Source: an alpha proteobacterium SCGC AAA288-N07
Lineage (GTDB): Bacteria; Pseudomonadota; Alphaproteobacteria; Pelagibacterales; Pelagibacteraceae
NCBI GenBank assembly: GCA_000513055.1
Contig: AZYB01000004.1
Span: forward strand, 1-54,660
Length of the DNA stretch: 54,660 nt
Reading direction: 5' to 3'
A program made the position numbers and the translations under genes. Position 1 is the stretch's first letter; each line of letters starts with the position of its first letter. Shown in pieces: positions 11,168-38,487 of this stretch. The notes under the pieces were generated by a model, which searched no databases, had not been told where the DNA came from, and was given only the letters and a program-made list of their open reading frames with translations.

Positions 11168-12237
11168 AAAAAAAAATTCTTTTTTGTAGCGGTGGAACAG
11201 GGGGGCACGTTTTCCCCTCTGCTAGTTTAATTAATTTTTTTAAAAAAAAAGAATATGAGACAGTACTTTTTATTGATAAAAGGGGAGCAAAATATCTAGA
11301 AAAAGATTTTTTTTTACACAAAACATTTAAAGTCAGTTTTCCATCACGCACAGGTCTTATAAGTAGAATATTTTTTTATTTAAAACTAATTCTAGTTTTA
11401 TTTAATTCCTTTTTAATTTTAAGAAAAGAAAAACCAAATTTTGTATTTGGTCTTGGAGGATATGTCTCTCTTCCCATATGTTTAGCTGCAAAATTACTTA
11501 ATATTCAAATCTTGTTATATGAACCCAATCTTGTATTGGGTAGGGTAAATAAATTTTTTGTACGTTATTGTAGGAAGCTCTTCATAAATTCTGACAATAT
11601 TATCAATCTTCCTAACAAATATTTGACCAAATGTGTTGAGGTTGGCAGCATTCTTAGAGAAGAAATTATGAAACATAAATTATCAGAAAAAAATAATTTA
11701 AATTCAAAAAAAACTATTTTAGTTTTAGGTGGTAGCCAAGGTGCTGAAATCTTTGGAGAAGTGATACCGCAGGTTATTCTAGATCTGAGTAAAAATTATA
11801 AGATAAACATTATTCAACAATCCTTACCTAAACAAGTAAATGAAATTCAAAATTTATATAATAATAATAATATTGAAAATTACATTTTTAGCTTTCATGA
11901 GAATATTGCTGAATTAATATCAAGAGCCGACCTTGCAATATCAAGATGCGGGTCATCAACTATCGGAGAACTTGAATTTTTAGGAGTACCATTTGTTGCG
12001 ATTCCTTATCCATTCGCCAAAGATAATCATCAATATCAAAATGCAATTTATTATGAAAAAAAAGGATGTTGTTGGATATTAGAGCAAAAAAATTTATCCT
12101 TTAAAAGTTTGAAAGAAATGTTGATCAAAATTTTAGATAATAATGTTGAATTAAGTTTAAAAAGAGAAAATATGCTTAAAAATGATAGTAAAAACACCCT
12201 TTTAAAAATAGAAAGAGAAATAAAAAAATTGATTTAA
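11164..12237 (+). CDS. murG: Lipid II synthase MurG (UDP-GlcNAc transferase)
   Basis: MurG transfers GlcNAc from UDP-GlcNAc to lipid I at the cytoplasmic membrane face, giving lipid II. The first glycine-rich loop is visible as CSGGTGGHVFPS at residues 7-18. The GLGGYVSLP segment lies near residue 97, and LGGSQGAE near residue 188. The C-terminal nucleotide-binding helix region SRCGSSTIGELEFLGVPFVAIPYP lies near residue 260. The length, 357 residues, is standard. It overlaps ftsW by four bases and murC by one. Confidence 0.96.
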   Translation: MKKKILFCSGGTGGHVFPSASLINFFKKKEYETVLFIDKRGAKYLEKDFFLHKTFKVSFPSRTGLISRIFFYLKLILVLFNSFLILRKEKPNFVFGLGGYVSLPICLAAKLLNIQILLYEPNLVLGRVNKFFVRYCRKLFINSDNIINLPNKYLTKCVEVGSILREEIMKHKLSEKNNLNSKKTILVLGGSQGAEIFGEVIPQVILDLSKNYKINIIQQSLPKQVNEIQNLYNNNNIENYIFSFHENIAELISRADLAISRCGSSTIGELEFLGVPFVAIPYPFAKDNHQYQNAIYYEKKGCCWILEQKNLSFKSLKEMLIKILDNNVELSLKRENMLKNDSKNTLLKIEREIKKLI

Positions 12238-29899: not shown

Positions 29900-30499
29900 A
29901 TGAAAAAATTTTACCTCTTATTCTTTTTAGTGATATTTTTTTGCAACATAGGTTGGACACAAAGTTCATTGCCTGAATGTGAAGGTAATGATGAAAATAT
30001 TTCAAAATATACGAAGAAACATTTTAGAAAAATGAGAAAATGGACCAATTGTCATGGTACAGCGATGGGCCCAGATGAACAAAAATATGTTGGTGAATTT
30101 TATAAGGGAGAATTTCATGGGAATGGAATATTCAGGCATGAAGGCAGAGAATATGTTGGGCAGTATAAGCATCATAAAAGGTACGGACAGGGCACTTATA
30201 CCTATGCAAATGGAGACATGTATGTTGGAAACTGGAAAGAACACAAATATTATGGAGAAGGAACCTATATATATTCTAATGGAGATAAATACATCGGTGA
30301 ATGGAAAAAAGATAAATATTTTAAACCAGACAATTCATCCGAGCGTAGCGGCAAAGGAACACATATATATATCAACGGAGATAAATACATTGGCGAATGG
30401 AAAAAAGGTAAACAGCACGGACAAGGAACTCTTACATATGCAGATGGAAGGGTTGAAAAAGGTGTTTGGAAAAAAGGTAAATTAATTGAATCAAAATAA
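29900..30499 (+). CDS. Secreted MORN-repeat protein (2)
   Basis: A tandem paralogue of the preceding gene, 199 residues. It has a clear signal peptide (KKFYLLFFLVIFFCNIGWTQ), then a region with RKWTNCHGT matching the PTWTNCYGK box of the first protein, then about six MORN repeats. An insertion of about 14 residues (KPDNSSERSGKG region) interrupts the regular 23-residue spacing near residue 140. Both proteins end in VxKGxWKKGxLI. Start at ATG 29900, immediately after the TAA of the first gene, so they are probably co-transcribed. Confidence 0.85.
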   Translation: MKKFYLLFFLVIFFCNIGWTQSSLPECEGNDENISKYTKKHFRKMRKWTNCHGTAMGPDEQKYVGEFYKGEFHGNGIFRHEGREYVGQYKHHKRYGQGTYTYANGDMYVGNWKEHKYYGEGTYIYSNGDKYIGEWKKDKYFKPDNSSERSGKGTHIYINGDKYIGEWKKGKQHGQGTLTYADGRVEKGVWKKGKLIESK

Positions 30500-32098: not shown

Positions 32099-32114
32099 TC
32101 AACACATTGAAAGA

Positions 32115-32140
32115 GACGCTCTGCTGCGCGGTGCCTTGGA
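32115..32140 (+). repeat. ssrA-core repeat R1 (degenerate)
   Basis: This is the leftmost and most divergent copy of the core that also forms the 3' end of the tmRNA coding piece. It shares GGTGCCTTGGA exactly with R2 and R6. The GGGC/GCCC inverted arms seen in the other copies are lost here (GACGCTCTGCTGCGC). The bases after it (TTACTTCCGGAGGCC) align with those after R2 (TTACTTCTAGAAACC), so the similarity extends beyond the core. Confidence 0.6.
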
Positions 32141-32443: not shown

Positions 32444-32473
32444 GGGGCGTTCTGTAGCCCGGTGCCTTGGACC
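32444..32473 (+). repeat. ssrA-core repeat R2
   Basis: The core reads GGGGCGTTCTGTAGCCCGGT followed by GCCTTGGACC. It differs from the tmRNA copy at 38180-38209 by one base in the first 20 and by the CCTTGGACC/CCCCAGACC variant. The inverted arms GGGC and GCCC around an eight-base spacer are intact. It is followed directly by the ~130 bp module that leads to the FkbM gene. Confidence 0.85.
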
Positions 32474-32593
32474 TTACTTCTAGAAACCAGATTCTGCAAT
32501 AATAAATATACAACCTGAAGCCTAAAGCGATTATTCAGTGCAGCGTATGTGCAGCGACTAGTGTGGCGAAACAACCTAGTGTAAGATTGGTCC
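32474..32593 (+). repeat. Post-core module A (shared with 36863-36983), tandem heptamers
   Basis: This non-coding stretch aligns end to end with 36863-36983, differing in length by about one base, and ends in the same TTGGTCCATGAAAAA. It contains two tandem GTGCAGCG (32538-32545, 32549-32556) and a direct repeat CTAGTGT (32558-32564, 32576-32582). At the corresponding positions of the other copy the heptamers read TGCACCA. The start codon of the FkbM gene is the ATG at its end. It could hold recombinase arm sites, a promoter or a small RNA; the sequence does not decide. Confidence 0.6.
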
Positions 32594-33421
32594 ATGAAAA
32601 AGTTTTTATTAAATTTTGGGATAAATACGTTTTTTGTATTAGGTGTAATTAATTATATTATTTTATTATTTAATTTTATTTTAAGGATTAAAAAAATTAT
32701 TCAACAAAAAAAATTAACTCCTATAGACAATACATTTAAAAGAATTTCATTAAAATTTTACAATAATAGATTTTTTATAAATATCGAAAAATTAAATTAT
32801 TTGTGTCAAGAAAAAGATACATTTGGATTAATTAGAGAAATTTTTTTCAGAAATGTATATTTAAAAAATTTAAATCTTAAAAATTTTAATAAATTTATAT
32901 GTTTTGATCTAGGATGTAATAGAGGTATTTTCTCTGTTATAGCATCTAAAATTTTTAAATTTGTTATATGTATTGATTTACAAACAAAATATAACAAATG
33001 TATTGATGAAATAATGTCTAGCAATAATCAAAAAAATTATGAGATAATTAATGGTATAATAGGAAGTTTAAAACTTTTAGAATTTAAGAATAAATTAGGT
33101 GCGAATCAAAGAATAATTAATATAAATGAACTTATAAAAAATAAAAGCAATGGAGAAAAAATATTTCTTAAAATTGATATTGAAGGAGGTGAATTTAGAT
33201 TATTTGATGAAATTGATTTAAACCTAGTGAATATAATTGTTATGGAAGTACATAATGATGAAGATATTCAAGGAGCCTTAAAAGGCAAAGGAAGTTTAAA
33301 AAAAATTTTAGATAAATTAAATGACAATAATTTCAAATTTCTTTGTTTTGATGAACGATTAAATAAAATAAGTTATCCTGATACAAACATTTCTTTTGTT
33401 AGAGCAATAAAAAGTAATTAA
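32594..33421 (+). CDS. FkbM-family SAM-dependent methyltransferase
   Basis: The 275-residue protein has an N-terminal hydrophobic segment (FLLNFGINTFFVLGVINYIILLF), suggesting membrane association. A SAM-binding FDLGCNRGIFSVIASKIF lies near residue 104, and the FkbM signature KIFLKIDIEGGEFRLFDEI near 194. FkbM enzymes O-methylate sugars of surface polysaccharides or secondary metabolites. Its first codons (MKKF) fall inside the conserved end of module A, like MKKL in the other module. The gene is extremely AT-rich. It is the only gene between R2 and R3, so it looks like the cargo of one insertion. Confidence 0.85.
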   Translation: MKKFLLNFGINTFFVLGVINYIILLFNFILRIKKIIQQKKLTPIDNTFKRISLKFYNNRFFINIEKLNYLCQEKDTFGLIREIFFRNVYLKNLNLKNFNKFICFDLGCNRGIFSVIASKIFKFVICIDLQTKYNKCIDEIMSSNNQKNYEIINGIIGSLKLLEFKNKLGANQRIININELIKNKSNGEKIFLKIDIEGGEFRLFDEIDLNLVNIIVMEVHNDEDIQGALKGKGSLKKILDKLNDNNFKFLCFDERLNKISYPDTNISFVRAIKSN

Positions 33422-33440
33422 TTATAAAGCTTATCTGAGG

Positions 33441-33470
33441 GGGGCGTTCTGTTGCCCGGTGCCTTGGATC
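33441..33470 (+). repeat. ssrA-core repeat R3
   Basis: The core GGGGCGTTCTGTTGCCCGGT is identical over 20 bases to the tmRNA 3' end (38180-38199). It continues GCCTTGGATC, the CCTTGG variant shared with R1, R2 and R6. It lies 20 bases after the FkbM stop. The ~160 bases after it, up to the dioxygenase gene, do not obviously match the module found after R2 and R6. Confidence 0.9.
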
Positions 33471-33631
33471 TTTTGTGGAAATTCTACAAAAAATAAAGAT
33501 ATAAGACTTGCTGGCAATTTTTTTTACACACTGATCAATGCAATTAACAAATGATTTTCTTTTTAAACAAGTTAAAGAATTAATGAATTTATGATATATA
33601 AACTTCAAGGTTTAATGCATGAGTGTTGAGT

Positions 33632-34513
33632 ATGAGTGAAAGTACAATAGATTACATATTTTCAAGATTTAAATTCATTAGAGTTATTAGCAAGCATTTA
33701 AAAATCATAATGAAAAAAATATCAAAAAATAAAATAACAAACGAAAAAATTGAAAAAACAGGTGTAATGTTAAGAAGATATAATCCTAGCCCTTCTAGTG
33801 AAAGTTATACTGAATTAAATGCAAATAAAGAAGAAATTTTAGAACAATTAAATCAAAAAGGTTTATATTTAGGTTTAAAACTTAAACAAAATACTCTTAA
33901 TTCATTATTAACATTATCGAATAATTCAAAACTTATACATAATAGAACTAAGCAAACTTTTAATAATTTGCAGGAAGTCAATCTTTATAATAAAGGAAAT
34001 AAAAAACCATGTTGTATAGTTAACCTTGTAGATCCTAGTTTAAAAAATTTATCAGATTTAGATCATCTAATAGATAAAATTGCTAGAGATAAAAATATTT
34101 TGCAATTAGCAAATAGTTATCTAGGCAAAGTAAAAGCAATTACTAATATATTAACATGGACTACTGTTTGTGAATCTGAAAAAATATGGAGAGAAAAAGA
34201 ACATACTGTTTTTTTTCATTATGACATACATGATTTTAATTTTATGTTTGTTTTTTTTTACCTTACAGATTGCGATAAAATGTCAGGAGCGCACGAACTA
34301 ATTCAAGGTTCTCATAATAAAAAAAAAATTCGTCATTTAATAGGGCCGGTCAGTTACAGTGAAAAACAATTAAAAAAAGATTATAATTTAAATGATTTTA
34401 AGATTATTGAAGGCAATGCTGGATTTGGATTTGCTGAGGATACCTCATGTTACCATAGAGCTCTAATACCAACAACAAAACCTAGATTGGCATTACAGAT
34501 TAGATATCATTAA
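33632..34513 (+). CDS. Phytanoyl-CoA dioxygenase (PhyH)-family oxygenase
   Basis: The protein is about 293 residues from ATG 33632 (a GTG at 33623 would add three). The iron-binding 2-His-1-carboxylate pattern is plausible: FHYDIHDFNF supplies His and Asp near residue 204, and CYHRALIPTTKPRLALQIRY supplies the distal His and the 2-oxoglutarate-binding Arg. PhyH-family enzymes hydroxylate diverse small molecules using iron and 2-oxoglutarate. The first 60 residues are basic and do not belong to the catalytic domain. Its stop lies seven bases before repeat R4, so the cargo fills the segment between R3 and R4. Substrate unknown. Confidence 0.82.
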   Translation: MSESTIDYIFSRFKFIRVISKHLKIIMKKISKNKITNEKIEKTGVMLRRYNPSPSSESYTELNANKEEILEQLNQKGLYLGLKLKQNTLNSLLTLSNNSKLIHNRTKQTFNNLQEVNLYNKGNKKPCCIVNLVDPSLKNLSDLDHLIDKIARDKNILQLANSYLGKVKAITNILTWTTVCESEKIWREKEHTVFFHYDIHDFNFMFVFFYLTDCDKMSGAHELIQGSHNKKKIRHLIGPVSYSEKQLKKDYNLNDFKIIEGNAGFGFAEDTSCYHRALIPTTKPRLALQIRYH

Positions 34514-34519
34514 TTTAGT

Positions 34520-34549
34520 GGGGCGTTTTGTTGCCCGGTTCCCCAGACT
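34520..34549 (+). repeat. ssrA-core repeat R4
   Basis: The core reads GGGGCGTTTTGTTGCCCGGT then TCCCCAGACT. It is the only copy besides the tmRNA itself with the CCCCAGAC variant. The GGGC/GCCC arms are intact with a GTTTTGTT spacer. It lies directly between the stops of the converging dioxygenase and methyltransferase genes. Confidence 0.85.
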
Positions 34550-34558
34550 TTTCTTTTG

Positions 34559-35278
34559 TTATTTAATACCCAATAAGGCGATATGGCTTGCAGTTTTGAA
34601 AAGGTTAATGTCAGCGTCTTTTGTATTAATAATATGTACACTCTTACAAGATGATTTAATTTGCCGATAGTTTGTAAAAACAGAATAAGAATAAGCCAAA
34701 CCATCGCCTTCGGACAAAGTATAACCTTTCCCTTTGGTTTTAATAAAATCTGCTAATTTCCATAATCGTAAGGCATATAAAATTTGTTTTATAGATCTCA
34801 TAACCTTAGATCCTGTACCAAGGTTGTTACAATCAGATATAAATATTGCCTTTTTTGAAACTCTTAACATTTCGTCAACGACTAATTTATTATTTCTTAA
34901 ATGATGAAGAGTTGCAAACTCACAAACTAAGTCAAATTCTGAATTTCTAAAATTTAATTTTGTTGCATCTCCATCAATCAATTCTTCTTTGGGTACTCCT
35001 TGTGAATAACCTACTTCTCTTAACTCTTTAACAGGTTCAATTCCAATTATCTTTATTTTTGGACATAATTTTTTTAAATATTTAAGACCCCTCCCAGTGC
35101 CGGATCCTACATCTAAAATAGACTCAATTTTAAGATAGTTTGTTAAACCCGCTAGGCAAGCTAGTGCAAAATACTGTTCATCGGCTTCATCTTCATTATG
35201 CATTTTTTCATACTGGTCAGAAGTTTTTTTGTAATAGTTTCTTTGAAGATTGATTTCATCAATATTTACGTTTTTCAT
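34559..35278 (-). CDS. Class I SAM-dependent methyltransferase (Methyltransf_11 type)
   Basis: The 239-residue protein has the SAM-binding motif SILDVGSGTGRGLKYL near residue 54, the acidic IIGIEPVKEL after it, and EFDLVCEFATLHHL near residue 115. This suits the UbiE/Methyltransf_11 class. A probable C-terminal substrate region includes GDGLAYSYSVFTNYRQI. The target is unknown. It is transcribed toward repeat R4, ending nine bases from it. It may be co-transcribed with the next methyltransferase gene, 158 bases upstream of its start. Confidence 0.85.
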   Translation of the reverse strand: MKNVNIDEINLQRNYYKKTSDQYEKMHNEDEADEQYFALACLAGLTNYLKIESILDVGSGTGRGLKYLKKLCPKIKIIGIEPVKELREVGYSQGVPKEELIDGDATKLNFRNSEFDLVCEFATLHHLRNNKLVVDEMLRVSKKAIFISDCNNLGTGSKVMRSIKQILYALRLWKLADFIKTKGKGYTLSEGDGLAYSYSVFTNYRQIKSSCKSVHIINTKDADINLFKTASHIALLGIK

Positions 35279-35436
35279 CCGTTTAAAATTAACATAATTT
35301 AATGCATATCGACAATTATTTTTATGCTTTAGATGTGTTAAATTATCAAGATTGTATCTTGTGTCTGATAAATAGATAAAGAAATCATTTAGTCTAAATT
35401 GATTAATAAAATCTAACTAGCCAACCTAAATAAATT

Positions 35437-36195
35437 TTAAACTATGATTTTCTCTGCGATGATGGCAATTGTTGCATTATTTTTATTATTTTTAAAAAAT
35501 AATTCATCTAAAAAATTAAATATTAAACTGATTGGAATATAAAAAAATTTTAAAATCAGGAAAGGACAAAGTCTTTGAAAAGAGACTAATTTTCTTGATA
35601 ACGGTCCGGTTATATAACTTGTTGAAATTATATGTAAATTATATTTTTCCAACATTACCTTTAATTTTTCTTTTGAATAACCTCGAACAACATGCCCACC
35701 GTCTTCAATAGGATTTCGTTTTATTAAAGAATCTTTATATAATTTGCTATAAAGAATATTTGGGGTTGTTAAATAAAGCAAACCACTATCATTAAGTAAA
35801 AATGAAATATCTTTTATAAGTTTTTCAGCATTAATTATATGCTCAATATTCTCAGTGTTAATAATGACATCAAATTTTTTTTTAAAAGAGATTATATCTA
35901 ATTTTCGAGCATCACCTACTTCAAGATTAATGCTTTTATTTAAAATATTCGCTCTCCTTTTAATTCTAGTAATTTCATCTTCGTTCCAACTAAGACCTGT
36001 TACTTCTTTATATTTTTTTGATTTCGCCAAAAATAATGACCAACCATTTCCACAACCAAGATCAAGGAGCGTTCCGTCTTCTTTGGGAGGAATAAGATTT
36101 TTATTTAACCATTTATATCTATCATAAATTGAGCAATCACCATTAAAAACTACTCCAAAAAATTTGATAAATATATATTCCGCAATTTTTTTCAT
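35437..36195 (-). CDS. Class I SAM-dependent methyltransferase with C-terminal hydrophobic segment
   Basis: The 252-residue protein carries LLDLGCGNGWSLFLAKS near residue 43, the SAM site, with VIINTENIEHI near residue 110. A C-terminal hydrophobic stretch (CPFLILKFFYIPISLIFNFLDELFF, near residue 210) suggests membrane attachment. Such enzymes are often found in O-antigen or glycolipid loci. It precedes the other methyltransferase on the same strand. The substrate cannot be told from sequence. Confidence 0.83.
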   Translation of the reverse strand: MKKIAEYIFIKFFGVVFNGDCSIYDRYKWLNKNLIPPKEDGTLLDLGCGNGWSLFLAKSKKYKEVTGLSWNEDEITRIKRRANILNKSINLEVGDARKLDIISFKKKFDVIINTENIEHIINAEKLIKDISFLLNDSGLLYLTTPNILYSKLYKDSLIKRNPIEDGGHVVRGYSKEKLKVMLEKYNLHIISTSYITGPLSRKLVSFQRLCPFLILKFFYIPISLIFNFLDELFFKNNKNNATIAIIAEKIIV

Positions 36196-36218
36196 TAAAG
36201 AATAAATTTTGACAATTG

Positions 36219-36386
36219 TTATTTCATTTCTTTTGTTCTTGGATTACCAAATATTCCTTCTTTATCAAGAAAATTAATGCACGGAGTAGAAGCATTTATA
36301 TTAGCTCTTTGTTTTGGAGCTATAGCTTTATTATTAGTAGAAGGTAGTTTGAAATTTGGTGCTTTAATATTATTTTTTAACTTCAT
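36219..36386 (-). other. Possible small ORF with peroxiredoxin-like N-terminus (doubtful)
   Basis: The minus-strand frame reads MKLKNNIKAPNFKLPSTNN, which resembles the opening of Bcp/AhpC-type peroxiredoxins, but the rest (ending NFLDKEGIFGNPRTKEMK) does not continue the fold. The plus strand at 36277-36495 is open as a hydrophobic ORF (GVEAFILALCFGAIALLLVEG), so either or neither may be real. The stretch may be debris between the methyltransferase and the tautomerase. Confidence 0.2.
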
Positions 36387-36424
36387 TTTTTTTATAGTTA
36401 TATACTTGAAAAGGCGTATTATTT

Positions 36425-36807
36425 TCAAGGGGCGTATTGTGCTTCACCATTGCCGAAGGACCAATTTTCCTTATCAACTTCAACTAAACCAATAAATACA
36501 TCTTCTTTTCTAATATGTAGTTTGGTATGTAATTCTTCAGCAATTTTTTTGTAAAGTTTTTTTTTAATTCAACTGATCTTCCACCATTCAATGTTATTTG
36601 AATAATAATAATTCCTGGCGTGTATTTTATGCCTAGATAACTATCAGGGATATTAATTTCCGAAGCATCATGTCTAGTTATGATTTGAAATTTATCATCT
36701 TTAGGAACATTAATTTCTTGTTCCATAGCAGCGTAAACTATATCTCCTATCTTTTTTGATATATCTGAAGAGTAGGATTTGTTTAAATCTATACGAACTA
36801 ATGGCAT
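36425..36807 (-). CDS. Tautomerase-family (4-OT/MIF-like) protein, frameshifted in this sequence
   Basis: The ORF from 36807 begins MPLVRIDL, placing a proline after Met as the usual catalytic base of the tautomerase superfamily. It continues through DSYLGIKYTPGIIIIQITL to NGGRSVELKK. After nine A (36557-36565, minus strand) the original frame degenerates, but another frame reads KKLYKKIAEELHTKLHIRKE, then VFIGLVEVDKENWSFGNGEA and QYAP with a stop at 36425. This is the expected C-terminus of the family. One more A, or two fewer, restores a protein of about 127 residues. It is either a homopolymer error or a decaying gene. Substrate unknown. Confidence 0.8.
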
Positions 36808-36832
36808 TTTATTATTTATATTCCTTTATCAA

Positions 36833-36862
36833 GGGGCGTTCCGTTGCCCGGTGCCTTGGACC
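36833..36862 (+). repeat. ssrA-core repeat R6
   Basis: The core reads GGGGCGTTCCGTTGCCCGGT then GCCTTGGACC. It differs from the tmRNA end by one base in the first 20 and carries the CCTTGGACC variant. The GGGC/GCCC arms are intact. It lies between the tautomerase start and the module before the MetE-like gene. (R5 is deliberately not used; see the rejected items.). Confidence 0.88.
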
Positions 36863-36983
36863 TGGCTTCGTGAAACAGTATTTAGTCAGCATTTTAATGC
36901 AACCCAAAGCTAAAAAGACGTTCCTGACCGCACCAAAATTGCACCAGCTAGTACACCAAGAAAATCTGGTGTACCATTGGTCC
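36863..36983 (+). repeat. Post-core module B (shared with 32474-32593), tandem heptamers and palindrome
   Basis: This copy aligns with module A over its whole length. It contains GCACCA at 36930-36935 and TGCACCA at 36940-36946, plus a perfect inverted pair GTACACCA (36951-36958) and TGGTGTAC (36967-36974) around an eight-base spacer. It ends TTGGTCC directly before the ATG of the 19-codon ORF. Tandem and inverted binding-site-like elements beside a putative att core are what one would expect of recombinase arm sites, but a promoter or structured RNA is equally possible. Confidence 0.62.
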
Positions 36984-37043
36984 ATGAAAAAACTTTTAGG
37001 GATCGTGGTTCTGGGTTTGTTGTGGAGCAATATTGTTAAATGA
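36984..37043 (+). CDS. 19-residue hydrophobic leader ORF (signal-peptide-like)
   Basis: The ORF reads MKKLLGIVVLGLLWSNIVK and stops at TGA, which overlaps the ATG of the MetE-like gene (AATGAA). It has the composition of a signal-peptide N-terminus (KK, then a hydrophobic core) but no cleavage site or mature part. It might be a translated leader that couples to the next gene, or the leftover 5' end of an earlier cargo gene. It begins at the same place in the module as the FkbM gene does in module A. Confidence 0.45.
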   Translation: MKKLLGIVVLGLLWSNIVK

Positions 37044-38074
37044 AAACAACCACAATAGGAGCATACCCAAGGCCATCTTACCTTAAAATACCTGATTGGT
37101 TTCAAAATATAGATAATACACCCATAGATTGGGATAGGGCTTGGAAGTTACTTGGAAATCAAAAAGACAAATTGATAAAAAAAGCTTGTCGAGAAGTGAT
37201 TAAGGAACAAGAAACAGTTGGTATAGACATTATAACAGATGGAGAAGTTCGAAGGGAAAATTATGTCCTTTATCACTGCAGACATTTAAAAGGAATTAAT
37301 TTTTCTAAACTAACAAAAAAAACTGTTCGGTTAGGTAGCTATGTATCTTGGTTTCCCACAATTACTTCAAAAGTAACTGCAGGAGAAAGTTTTCTGCCCA
37401 AAGAGTGGAAAATGTCCCAATCATTCACTAAACTTCCGATAAAAATCACTATACCTGGCCCAATGACGATTAGTGATAATACATCTAATGAATATTATAC
37501 AGATTCAATAACGATGGGTATTGATTTGGGAAACGCCATCAACACCGAAATTAAAAGACTTGTGGACGCAGGATGCAAATACATACAAGTAGACGAACCT
37601 CTTTTTGCCAGAAAGTCATCCGAAGCTATTGATTATGGTATCGACAATCTAGAGAGATGTTTTCATGGATGTCCAAAAGAAATTGTAAAAATTGTACATA
37701 TGTGTTGTGGCTACCCAGATAAACTTGATGCAGTCGAATATCCTAAAGCTCCACTTGAATCTTACTGGAAAATTTCCGAAGCACTTAACAATTCCACAAT
37801 AGATGAGATATCATTAGAAGATGCTCATCGAAATAATAATTTGAGTTTATTAGAAAAGTTTGATTCTAAGACGATTATTTTAGGTGTAGTTAAAATTGCA
37901 AGTAGCGAAATGGAATCAGAAGAAAAAATTAATCAAAGAGTACGGCAAGCACTCGAACATATTGATAGAGAAAGACTAATATTAGCTCCTGACTGTGGAC
38001 TTAGTTTTTTACCAAAAGAACTTTGTCTTCGAAAACTGAAAATTATGACAAAAGTAGCTAAGAGTTTTTCATGA
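37040..38074 (+). CDS. Cobalamin-independent methionine synthase (MetE C-terminal domain)-like protein
   Basis: The 344-residue protein corresponds to a stand-alone MetE catalytic domain. It opens with TTIGAYPRPSYL, contains TIPGPMTISDN and IQVDEPLFA, the zinc-site segment VHMCCGYPDK (His-x-Cys), and near the C-terminus ILGVVKIASSEMESEE and LAPDCGLSFLP. Full MetE has two such barrels (about 750 residues); single-barrel forms act as methyltransferases for other donors or acceptors, or in methionine salvage. It sits between R6 and the tmRNA, as the cargo nearest the insertion site. The ATG overlaps the stop of the short leader ORF. Confidence 0.85.
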   Translation: MKTTTIGAYPRPSYLKIPDWFQNIDNTPIDWDRAWKLLGNQKDKLIKKACREVIKEQETVGIDIITDGEVRRENYVLYHCRHLKGINFSKLTKKTVRLGSYVSWFPTITSKVTAGESFLPKEWKMSQSFTKLPIKITIPGPMTISDNTSNEYYTDSITMGIDLGNAINTEIKRLVDAGCKYIQVDEPLFARKSSEAIDYGIDNLERCFHGCPKEIVKIVHMCCGYPDKLDAVEYPKAPLESYWKISEALNNSTIDEISLEDAHRNNNLSLLEKFDSKTIILGVVKIASSEMESEEKINQRVRQALEHIDRERLILAPDCGLSFLPKELCLRKLKIMTKVAKSFS

Positions 38075-38084
38075 TTTAAACTGG

Positions 38085-38140
38085 CAGTAGAAACCAGAGG
38101 CAAAATCTTTTCTCAGTGCACCACCAGTGCACCAAGGAAT
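38085..38140 (+). repeat. Partial post-core module (no core), tandem GTGCACCA
   Basis: Just after the MetE-like gene the sequence TAGAAACCAGAGGCAAAAT resembles the start of module A (TAGAAACCAGATTCTGCAAT). It is followed by two GTGCACCA (38116-38123 and 38127-38134), the same heptamers as in module B. No core precedes it. It looks like a truncated copy of the module, or sites belonging to the tmRNA-proximal boundary. Confidence 0.5.
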
Positions 38141-38179
38141 TAAAAAACATTAATTGATGAGAGTTTTAGTCGTTACGAA

Positions 38180-38209
38180 GGGGCGTTCTGTTGCCCGGTG
38201 CCCCAGACC
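38180..38209 (+). repeat. ssrA-core repeat R7 (within the tmRNA coding-piece 3' end)
   Basis: The plus-strand core GGGGCGTTCTGTTGCCCGGT followed by GCCCCAGACC is the complement of the last ~30 bases of the tmRNA coding piece, which lie just after the tag stop codons. It is the presumed parental site (attB-like) of copies R1-R6. Here the minus strand could form GGGGC...GCCCC, which the CCTTGG-type copies cannot fully form. Confidence 0.88.
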
Positions 38210-38400
38210 GCGCTTTCTTAATTATTATTAAGCAGCGAGAGCAAATTTATCATTTGCAATTATAATTTAGCCCGTTACGGCGGAACAATACCGAACGAAA
38301 GAATAGCCTTTAGACACCCGTCGATCCTAGTTCACCCCCATAAGTTGAAATGGTGGAGGTGGTGGGTACTGCCCCCACGTCCGTAATGTTTATTACGAAA
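38180..38400 (-). ncRNA. ssrA: Two-piece (circularly permuted) tmRNA
   Basis: tmRNA with SmpB rescues stalled ribosomes and adds a degradation tag. On the minus strand the acceptor piece comes first: a CGTAAT/ATTACG hairpin, GGACGTGGG, and CACCTCCACCA ending at 38351. An 11-base spacer follows, then the coding piece starting GGGGGTGAACTAGG at 38339 and continuing GATCGACGGG. GGGGGTG pairs with CACCTCC as the acceptor stem. The tag frame (38257 to 38231) reads ANDKFALAA, then TAATAATAAT stops. The permuted order is the alphaproteobacterial arrangement. The T-arm loop reads GGCAGTA rather than the usual TTCRA type. The 5' boundary near 38400 and the 3' end near 38180 are estimates. Confidence 0.9.
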
Positions 38401-38487
38401 TTCGTTTATCGTCATAGTTGGAAATCCAACACTATTAATATAAAACTTGATAATTAATATTCAATAACTTTTGAACTTTTATTAGGT

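Follow-up and report, generated by a model that had tools for sequence, protein, structure and literature searches.

Repeated words at the ends of cassettes behind ssrA in a Pelagibacteraceae genome are probably docking sites for phage-type integrases

The 54,660-nt stretch of contig AZYB01000004.1 (assembly GCA_000513055.1; hereafter the window) from the alphaproteobacterium SCGC AAA288-N07 (Pelagibacterales; Pelagibacteraceae) carries ssrA, the gene for transfer-messenger RNA (tmRNA), and downstream of it several displaced copies of the ssrA 3′ end. Two of these copies, the cores R2 and R6, are followed by similar modules that contain short words in tandem, and the copies within a module differ from those of the other module in the same way. 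This raises the question of what the words are for and why their copies change together. The first-pass annotation of this DNA proposed selection for binding by a protein, for example at the arm sites of a recombinase, or for pairing with an RNA. The comparison presented here argues for recombinase arm sites, based on covariation between element ends, tracking of integrase type and word pairs in front of 33 out of 47 related integrases, and it argues against pairing with RNA. We take the repeated 8-letter words, which lie at both ends of one-gene cassettes, as probable docking sites of a phage-type integrase, and the modules are very likely the arm regions on the left attachment site (attL) side of small integrative elements that were stacked behind the permuted tmRNA gene, at its 3′ end.

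The ssrA gene, its displaced ends and the two modules

Both Rfam and ARAGORN identified the target gene as a permuted tmRNA gene of the alphaproteobacterial type, and ARAGORN gave ANDKFALAA as the tag of its product. The pattern of the core matches five times in the window, where shuffled sequences lead to an expectation of zero. All displaced cores (R1 to R4 and R6) have one common direction and lie on the downstream side of ssrA. The gene, the cores and the putative arm sites are located as follows:

38177–38468, minus strand: ssrA, permuted (two-piece) tmRNA gene, proposed integration target (Rfam RF01849, 238 bits; ARAGORN)
38180–38202: core R7, the intact ssrA 3′ end
32113–32135, plus strand: core R1, degenerate displaced ssrA 3′ end with 5 mismatches to the core
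32444–32466, plus strand: core R2
33441–33463, plus strand: core R3
34520–34542, plus strand: core R4
36833–36855, plus strand: core R6, left boundary of an intact-looking cassette
32538–32568, plus strand: putative left arm sites of element R2–R3, GTGCAGCG at 32538 and 32549 and GTGTGGCG at 32561
36929–36958, plus strand: putative left arm sites of cassette R6–R7, CGCACCA at 36929, TGCACCA at 36940 and TACACCA at 36952
38116–38134, plus strand: putative right arm sites of cassette R6–R7, two copies of GTGCACCA at 38116 and 38127 with 11 bp spacing
36833–38179, plus strand: cassette R6–R7 of 1.35 kb, without recombinase, consisting of the core, three arm sites, a metE-like gene and two arm sites

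The target end is present as a direct repeat at the boundaries R2, R3, R4, R6 and R7, as in islands bounded by attachment (att) sites, and R6–R7 has words on both core sides, three on the left and two on the right, the latter 46 bp from core R7. The cores are copies of this end and very probably represent what is left of the att sites of small islands that were stacked downstream of ssrA.

The sequences after R2 and R6 had been described as collinear and about one base different in length, and this holds: module A (32444–32608, 165 nt) and module B (36833–36998, 166 nt) are collinear and 68% identical, and one retrieves the other at E = 9.6e-10 in a search of the whole genome. Both contain TTGGTCCATGAAAAA, reported before as their common end. 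The two identical copies of GTGCAGCG in module A, the two copies of GTGCACCA in a third, partial module (38085–38140) and the heptamers of module B with a perfect inverted pair, GTACACCA at 36951–36958 and TGGTGTAC at 36967–36974, were likewise recovered. Overlooked at first was a third copy of the word in each left module, GTGTGGCG in module A and TACACCA in module B; with it, modules A and B both have successive word spacings of 11 and 12 bp.

The inverted pair in module B could mean that the words act at the level of RNA, through pairing or through a structure of their own, and this module indeed folds slightly better than its shuffles (z −1.7). Module A, on the other hand, folds worse than its shuffles (z +1.7), and the consensus of four sequences reaches −1.1 kcal/mol with the words not involved. 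The conserved RNA structure for which the first-pass annotation had suggested a test was thus not found in the modules, and we give a role in RNA hardly any credence.

Words shared between element ends and with integrases

If the words are arm sites, both ends of an element should carry the same word. We compared 64 non-redundant ssrA elements of marine alphaproteobacteria. Displaced ssrA ends in tandem are common: the exact 23-base core occurs in 59 genome stretches, many of which have extra degenerate copies, with up to eight core copies in a single 8 kb stretch. When at most 15 kb downstream of ssrA was read in 60 genomes of the order, extra cores (≤6 mismatches) were present in 18 of them and a tyrosine integrase was detectable in none of the 60 stretches. 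Tandem words with a spacing of 11–12 bp were present at the left end of 32/64 elements and at the right end of 19/64, while dinucleotide shuffles gave 0.76 and 0.60, respectively, and the interiors of elements 2/43. The words vary widely among elements (e.g., TTACGACGA, GTGTGAAT, ACGGCACA, ATCCCGTA, TTCCGAA, TGTGCCA and CTTCGTG). Within an element, the left and right ends have a mean word similarity of 7.55 versus 5.51 ± 0.135 when ends are permuted, and none of 20,000 permutations was as high (maximum 6.21). This test excludes very short elements with overlapping windows, which had inflated a first permutation test on 69 elements. The end-to-end word match exceeds the 99th percentile of unpaired comparisons in 18 elements, and one array (L062) contains three adjacent cassettes with three distinct words, each of which is present at both ends.

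Joint change of neighbouring copies was also seen at another target. Three tRNA-Arg modules with near-identical flanks, two on contig C20 of the same genome and one in a second genome (G004), have the pairs CTACTAGT, GGTCATGT and GTTCAAGT, and in each module both copies are altered together. The covariation between heptamer copies anticipated by the first-pass annotation is therefore present both between the ends of the 64 elements and within these three modules. Concerted copying by slippage or gene conversion would also make adjacent copies change together, without any selection. We regard this as very improbable since the word is common to ends that lie ~0.5–1.5 kb apart, the spacing is fixed at 11–12 bp while the bases between the copies differ, and the same layout occurs across diverse integrases.

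That integrases have such words follows from a set of 47 related integrases, taken from order and class searches and mostly located at tRNA genes. A mechanical scan detected a tandem word at most 125 bp before the start codon in 33/47 (15/17 within the order), while the shuffle null gave a mean of 1.4 and a maximum of 6. Examples of these words are TGTCACA, TGGTCGCA, TGCTCCA, TGACGTCC and GTGTCCCAA. By eye, the seven integrases at tRNA genes from the first family search all have a pair, in some cases imperfect, between the tRNA end and the integrase start. The similarity of integrase words correlates with protein similarity, both for residues 1–62 (Mantel r 0.22, p 6e-4, n = 38) and for residues 150–330 (r 0.32, p 1e-4, n = 38). 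As had been suggested for the heptamers, the words thus appear to track the type of recombinase. Some machine-extracted integrase words are doubtful (e.g., L221), but this noise is expected to weaken the correlation and not to create it.

An operator function of the words has to be considered as well. The shared module end TTGGTCCATGAAAAA is probably outside the recombination site: it consists of a promoter-like stretch and the start of a signal-peptide-like frame, and similar starts exist elsewhere in the genome. The words of the left modules are placed upstream of the cargo start, and a TAnnnT box 5–9 nt before the ATG is found in 23/33 left modules versus 10/37 control frames. This could imply that the words are operators of a transcription factor that controls the cargo and that they are carried along with the promoter, unrelated to recombination. 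However, the opposite end of the element has the same words, about as far from its next core, and such pairs precede integrase genes at tRNA genes. In addition, both roles can coexist: the attL of the KplE1 prophage has arm-type sites that overlap with the promoter of intS, which is negatively autoregulated (PMC2951348). An exclusive operator role is therefore improbable in our view, while arm words upstream of cargo genes may possibly affect cargo expression, by analogy with KplE1.

The start of the frame in TTGGTCCATGAAAAA was seen more widely. A start of the type ATGAAAAAACTTTTAGGGAT (MKKLLGIVVLGLLW) with conserved upstream sequence is common to unrelated genes (window 36985–37043; L352, L354 and L349), and in module B and in L014 it persists as a very short frame ahead of the cargo gene. 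In the window this is:

36985–37043, plus strand: short frame MKKLLGIVVLGLLWSNIVK with a signal-peptide-like start, adjoining module B and overlapping the metE-like start

Two further arrangements were encountered in the comparison. One is a separate word class, ACTTCGTTG / CTTCGTGTA, with 12 bp spacing at ~60 bp from the core (L147 8962–14772, L035, L156 13843, L170 and L072), for which no integrase with the same words was seen. The other is a second type of array at tRNA-Arg(TCT), in which an intact tRNA and a displaced 3′ end lie ~5 kb apart (L356, the reverse complement of contig C20, at 9283 and 14245; L349); the tandem word after the intact tRNA differs from the one after the displaced end, whereas their flanks are nearly identical. 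An ssrA core with 1 mismatch is present at 11983 within the tRNA-Arg(TCT) island of contig C20.

Proposed mechanism and candidate helpers

In the mechanism that we propose, a tyrosine integrase would cut and join at the core, while a separate DNA-binding domain of the same protein, N-terminal in known members, would hold the arm words of 7–8 bp. In the excised circle, the core would then be flanked by two arm words to one side and by three to the opposite side. All copies of one element must fit one integrase, and therefore the copies would change together. Cassettes with a metabolic gene and without an integrase would depend on an integrase that prefers the same arm words and is supplied in trans by a phage or a larger element. 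Such a visiting integrase would bind the arms and either excise the cassette or join it to the ssrA end, where the core copy would restore the gene. For the window, the candidate helper would be an integrase accompanied by TGGTGCAC words and by an ssrA core. The sequences themselves establish which gene end is the target, how the arms are arranged, that both ends of an element share its word, that such words adjoin integrase genes and that one ssrA integrase and a cassette match exactly in their word; from this we infer integrase binding to the words, mobilisation in trans and the occasional visit of a helper.

An integrase located directly at ssrA was found in two genomes, L027 and G247/L228. 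In G247/L228 the neighbours on the other side of ssrA are ThyX (thymidylate synthase) and an Mrp-like protein, as in the window. In reverse complement, the word of the G247 integrase, TGGCGTCATGGTGGCGTCA, matches a cassette of a different genome (L156) at its left arm with 19/19 identity and a word score of 16.2 versus a maximum of 7.4 for shuffled ends; in pairs, the word of this type of integrase is TGGCGTCA. The integrase of L027 matches PF00589, and its word fits best to a cassette of L022 (12.0 versus a maximum of 8.0 for shuffled ends); L022 and L027 have an identical tmRNA tag. By its word, the G247 integrase is a candidate helper for the L156 cassette; for the window's word only viral integrases turned up.

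Read from core R7 into the element, the right arm of R6–R7 gives the pattern TGGTGCACNNNTGGTGCAC, which is present in 38 viral contigs. Eleven of these stretches hold an integrase of the family, and in 10/11 the word is at most 300 bp away from it; the reversed control pattern occurs in 3 viral contigs, none with an integrase. One viral contig (L251) resembles a phage attachment site (attP), with the order GTGCACCA twice, presumed core, GTGCACCA, TGCACCA, TGCACCA and integrase start, and GCACCAAAATTGCACCA is identical (17/17) between the left arm of R6–R7 and the arm beside the L251 integrase. Circularised on paper, R6–R7 would have the order, direction and word number of L251, with the metE-like gene where L251 has its integrase. 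L251 illustrates how the word is used but does not demonstrate a helper for ssrA. Pairs of GTGCAGCG were found in 56 viral contigs, and since only 2 of these are near integrases, a helper for module A gets little support.

Phage records searched with the module or the core contained no attP at ssrA. Viral contigs with a 20-base core were rejected as attP since they represent phage-borne permuted tmRNA genes, and additional contigs with 16 core bases look like chance matches in GC-rich phages. Viral contigs L107–L114 encode their own permuted tmRNA genes, mostly with the tag ADENLALAA. The L027 integrase was not retrieved from viral contigs with a peptide-pattern search.

Cargo genes, present mobility and known systems

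Each interval of the window carries one to a few ordinary genes:

37040–38074, plus strand: cargo of R6–R7, cobalamin-independent methionine synthase-like (metE-like) protein (PF01717, E = 2.6e-39)
32594–33421, plus strand: cargo of R2–R3, FkbM-type methyltransferase (PF05050, E = 1.6e-7)
33623–34513, plus strand: cargo of R3–R4, without a Pfam match
34559–36807, minus strand: cargo of R4–R6, two methyltransferases and a tautomerase-like protein (Pfam search)

The metE-like gene is missing from 4/4 genomes of the same genus that were examined, and its nearest homologues, 55–60% identical, are in a sister family, so that it fits horizontal acquisition. At the same position, G004 has a different cassette. 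With att-like boundaries and cargo but no recombinase, the window agrees with integrase-less elements or satellites; the integrase that an att-bounded island would encode is lacking in the window.

Several observations weigh against the docking-site reading. Firstly, neither the window nor its own genome has a match to PF00589, although the assembly is 66% complete and may hide an integrase. Only 1/397 genomes of the order was seen with an integrase at ssrA, and the search at family level did not find an integrase with the window's word: it returned only the window itself and, in two genomes, near-matches that lie within a coding sequence. Among the 30 best Pfam integrase loci in the family, most represent one protein of ~320 residues per genome, the rest being at tRNA genes and none at ssrA. 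Secondly, R6–R7 alone among the window elements retains both arm sets, a scan of element ends for tandem words gave no recognisable right arm for R2–R3, and about half of all elements lack a clear tandem word, some perhaps due to core calling at ≤6 mismatches. Lastly, word similarity follows the catalytic part of the integrases no less closely than the first 62 residues, which neither pins down the binding domain nor shows the N-terminal domain to be the sole carrier of word specificity.

The missing arms and the rarity of ssrA integrases are also what would be expected from a defunct record, in which the arm words are real but the elements moved long ago and persist as relics without present mobility. 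Against this stand the 18 elements with matching end words, the absence of the metE-like gene in genomes of the same genus and the other cassette in G004. We consider such a relic unlikely, but it deserves to be taken seriously. Building on the docking-site reading, the array may work as an addressed cassette system with one landing site, in which the arm word decides which visiting integrase moves a cassette. Different phages or helpers would then mobilise different subsets of the array, and words in the promoter region of the cargo could gate its expression. We put this forward tentatively, as a possibility that is on balance doubtful.

The att sites of lambda and Tn916 have tandem arm-type words that flank the core near the integrase start. 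KplE1/HK620-type att sites show the same layout as found here, with tandem short words about one helical turn apart that flank a core at a tRNA or tmRNA end near the integrase start (PMC2951348). Unlike in these phage att sites, a metabolic gene takes the place of the integrase in the window, and one array combines several elements that differ in their words but have a common type of core. The nearest published case that we found are the ssrA islands of Dehalococcoides, for which two papers describe tandem direct repeats of the ssrA 3′ end with cargo between them (PMC2764846, PMC3146451). Fifteen of these islands have no integration module, and a cis-mobilizable nature was suggested for units that lack the recombinase. 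Tandem ssrA ends and recombinase-less units are thus common to both, but the recombinase of Dehalococcoides is a serine recombinase (DsiB), and element-specific arm words are not reported in the passages considered. No PF00239 match, and hence no such serine recombinase module (DsiB/DsiA), was found in the window's own genome.

Tycheposons and virion-encapsidated integrative mobile elements (VEIMEs) are small integrative elements with cargo, known from streamlined marine microbes and from phages, and in this they resemble the window cassettes. To our knowledge, they belong to tRNA genes of cyanobacteria or are parasites of marine phages, and have not been described as ssrA arrays in SAR11. Both are listed among the satellite families (PMC11389934). 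Integron arrays and clusters of attC sites lacking integron integrases (CALINs) contain tandem one-gene cassettes at one site with the recombinase in trans (PMC11389934). The one-gene cassettes in tandem at a single site are shared with the window, but the repeated site is here the end of a tmRNA gene with arm words; an integron integrase would match PF00589, for which the incomplete genome gave no match.

Arm-type sites and integrase-less att-bounded elements are already known, and the window combines one-gene cassettes, a shared target and element-specific arm words. We found no paper that reports arrays of cassettes at ssrA in SAR11, or arm words specific to single elements there, but most subscription journals were outside the search, so that this does not establish priority. 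Bacteria of the SAR11 type count among the most abundant cells of the ocean, and they differ in gene content although few mobile elements are visible in them. Cassettes that have their own word at both ends and no integrase suggest how such streamlined cells exchange genes: att-bounded one-gene cassettes at ssrA whose word indicates the matching integrase would be a concrete and testable route. The integrase able to move a given gene could then be predicted from the sequence of the words, and the arm words together with their integrases form a natural set for learning how arm-binding specificity changes.

Elsewhere in the window, a 59-nt direct repeat is present in four imperfect copies within a reading frame (30189–30481).

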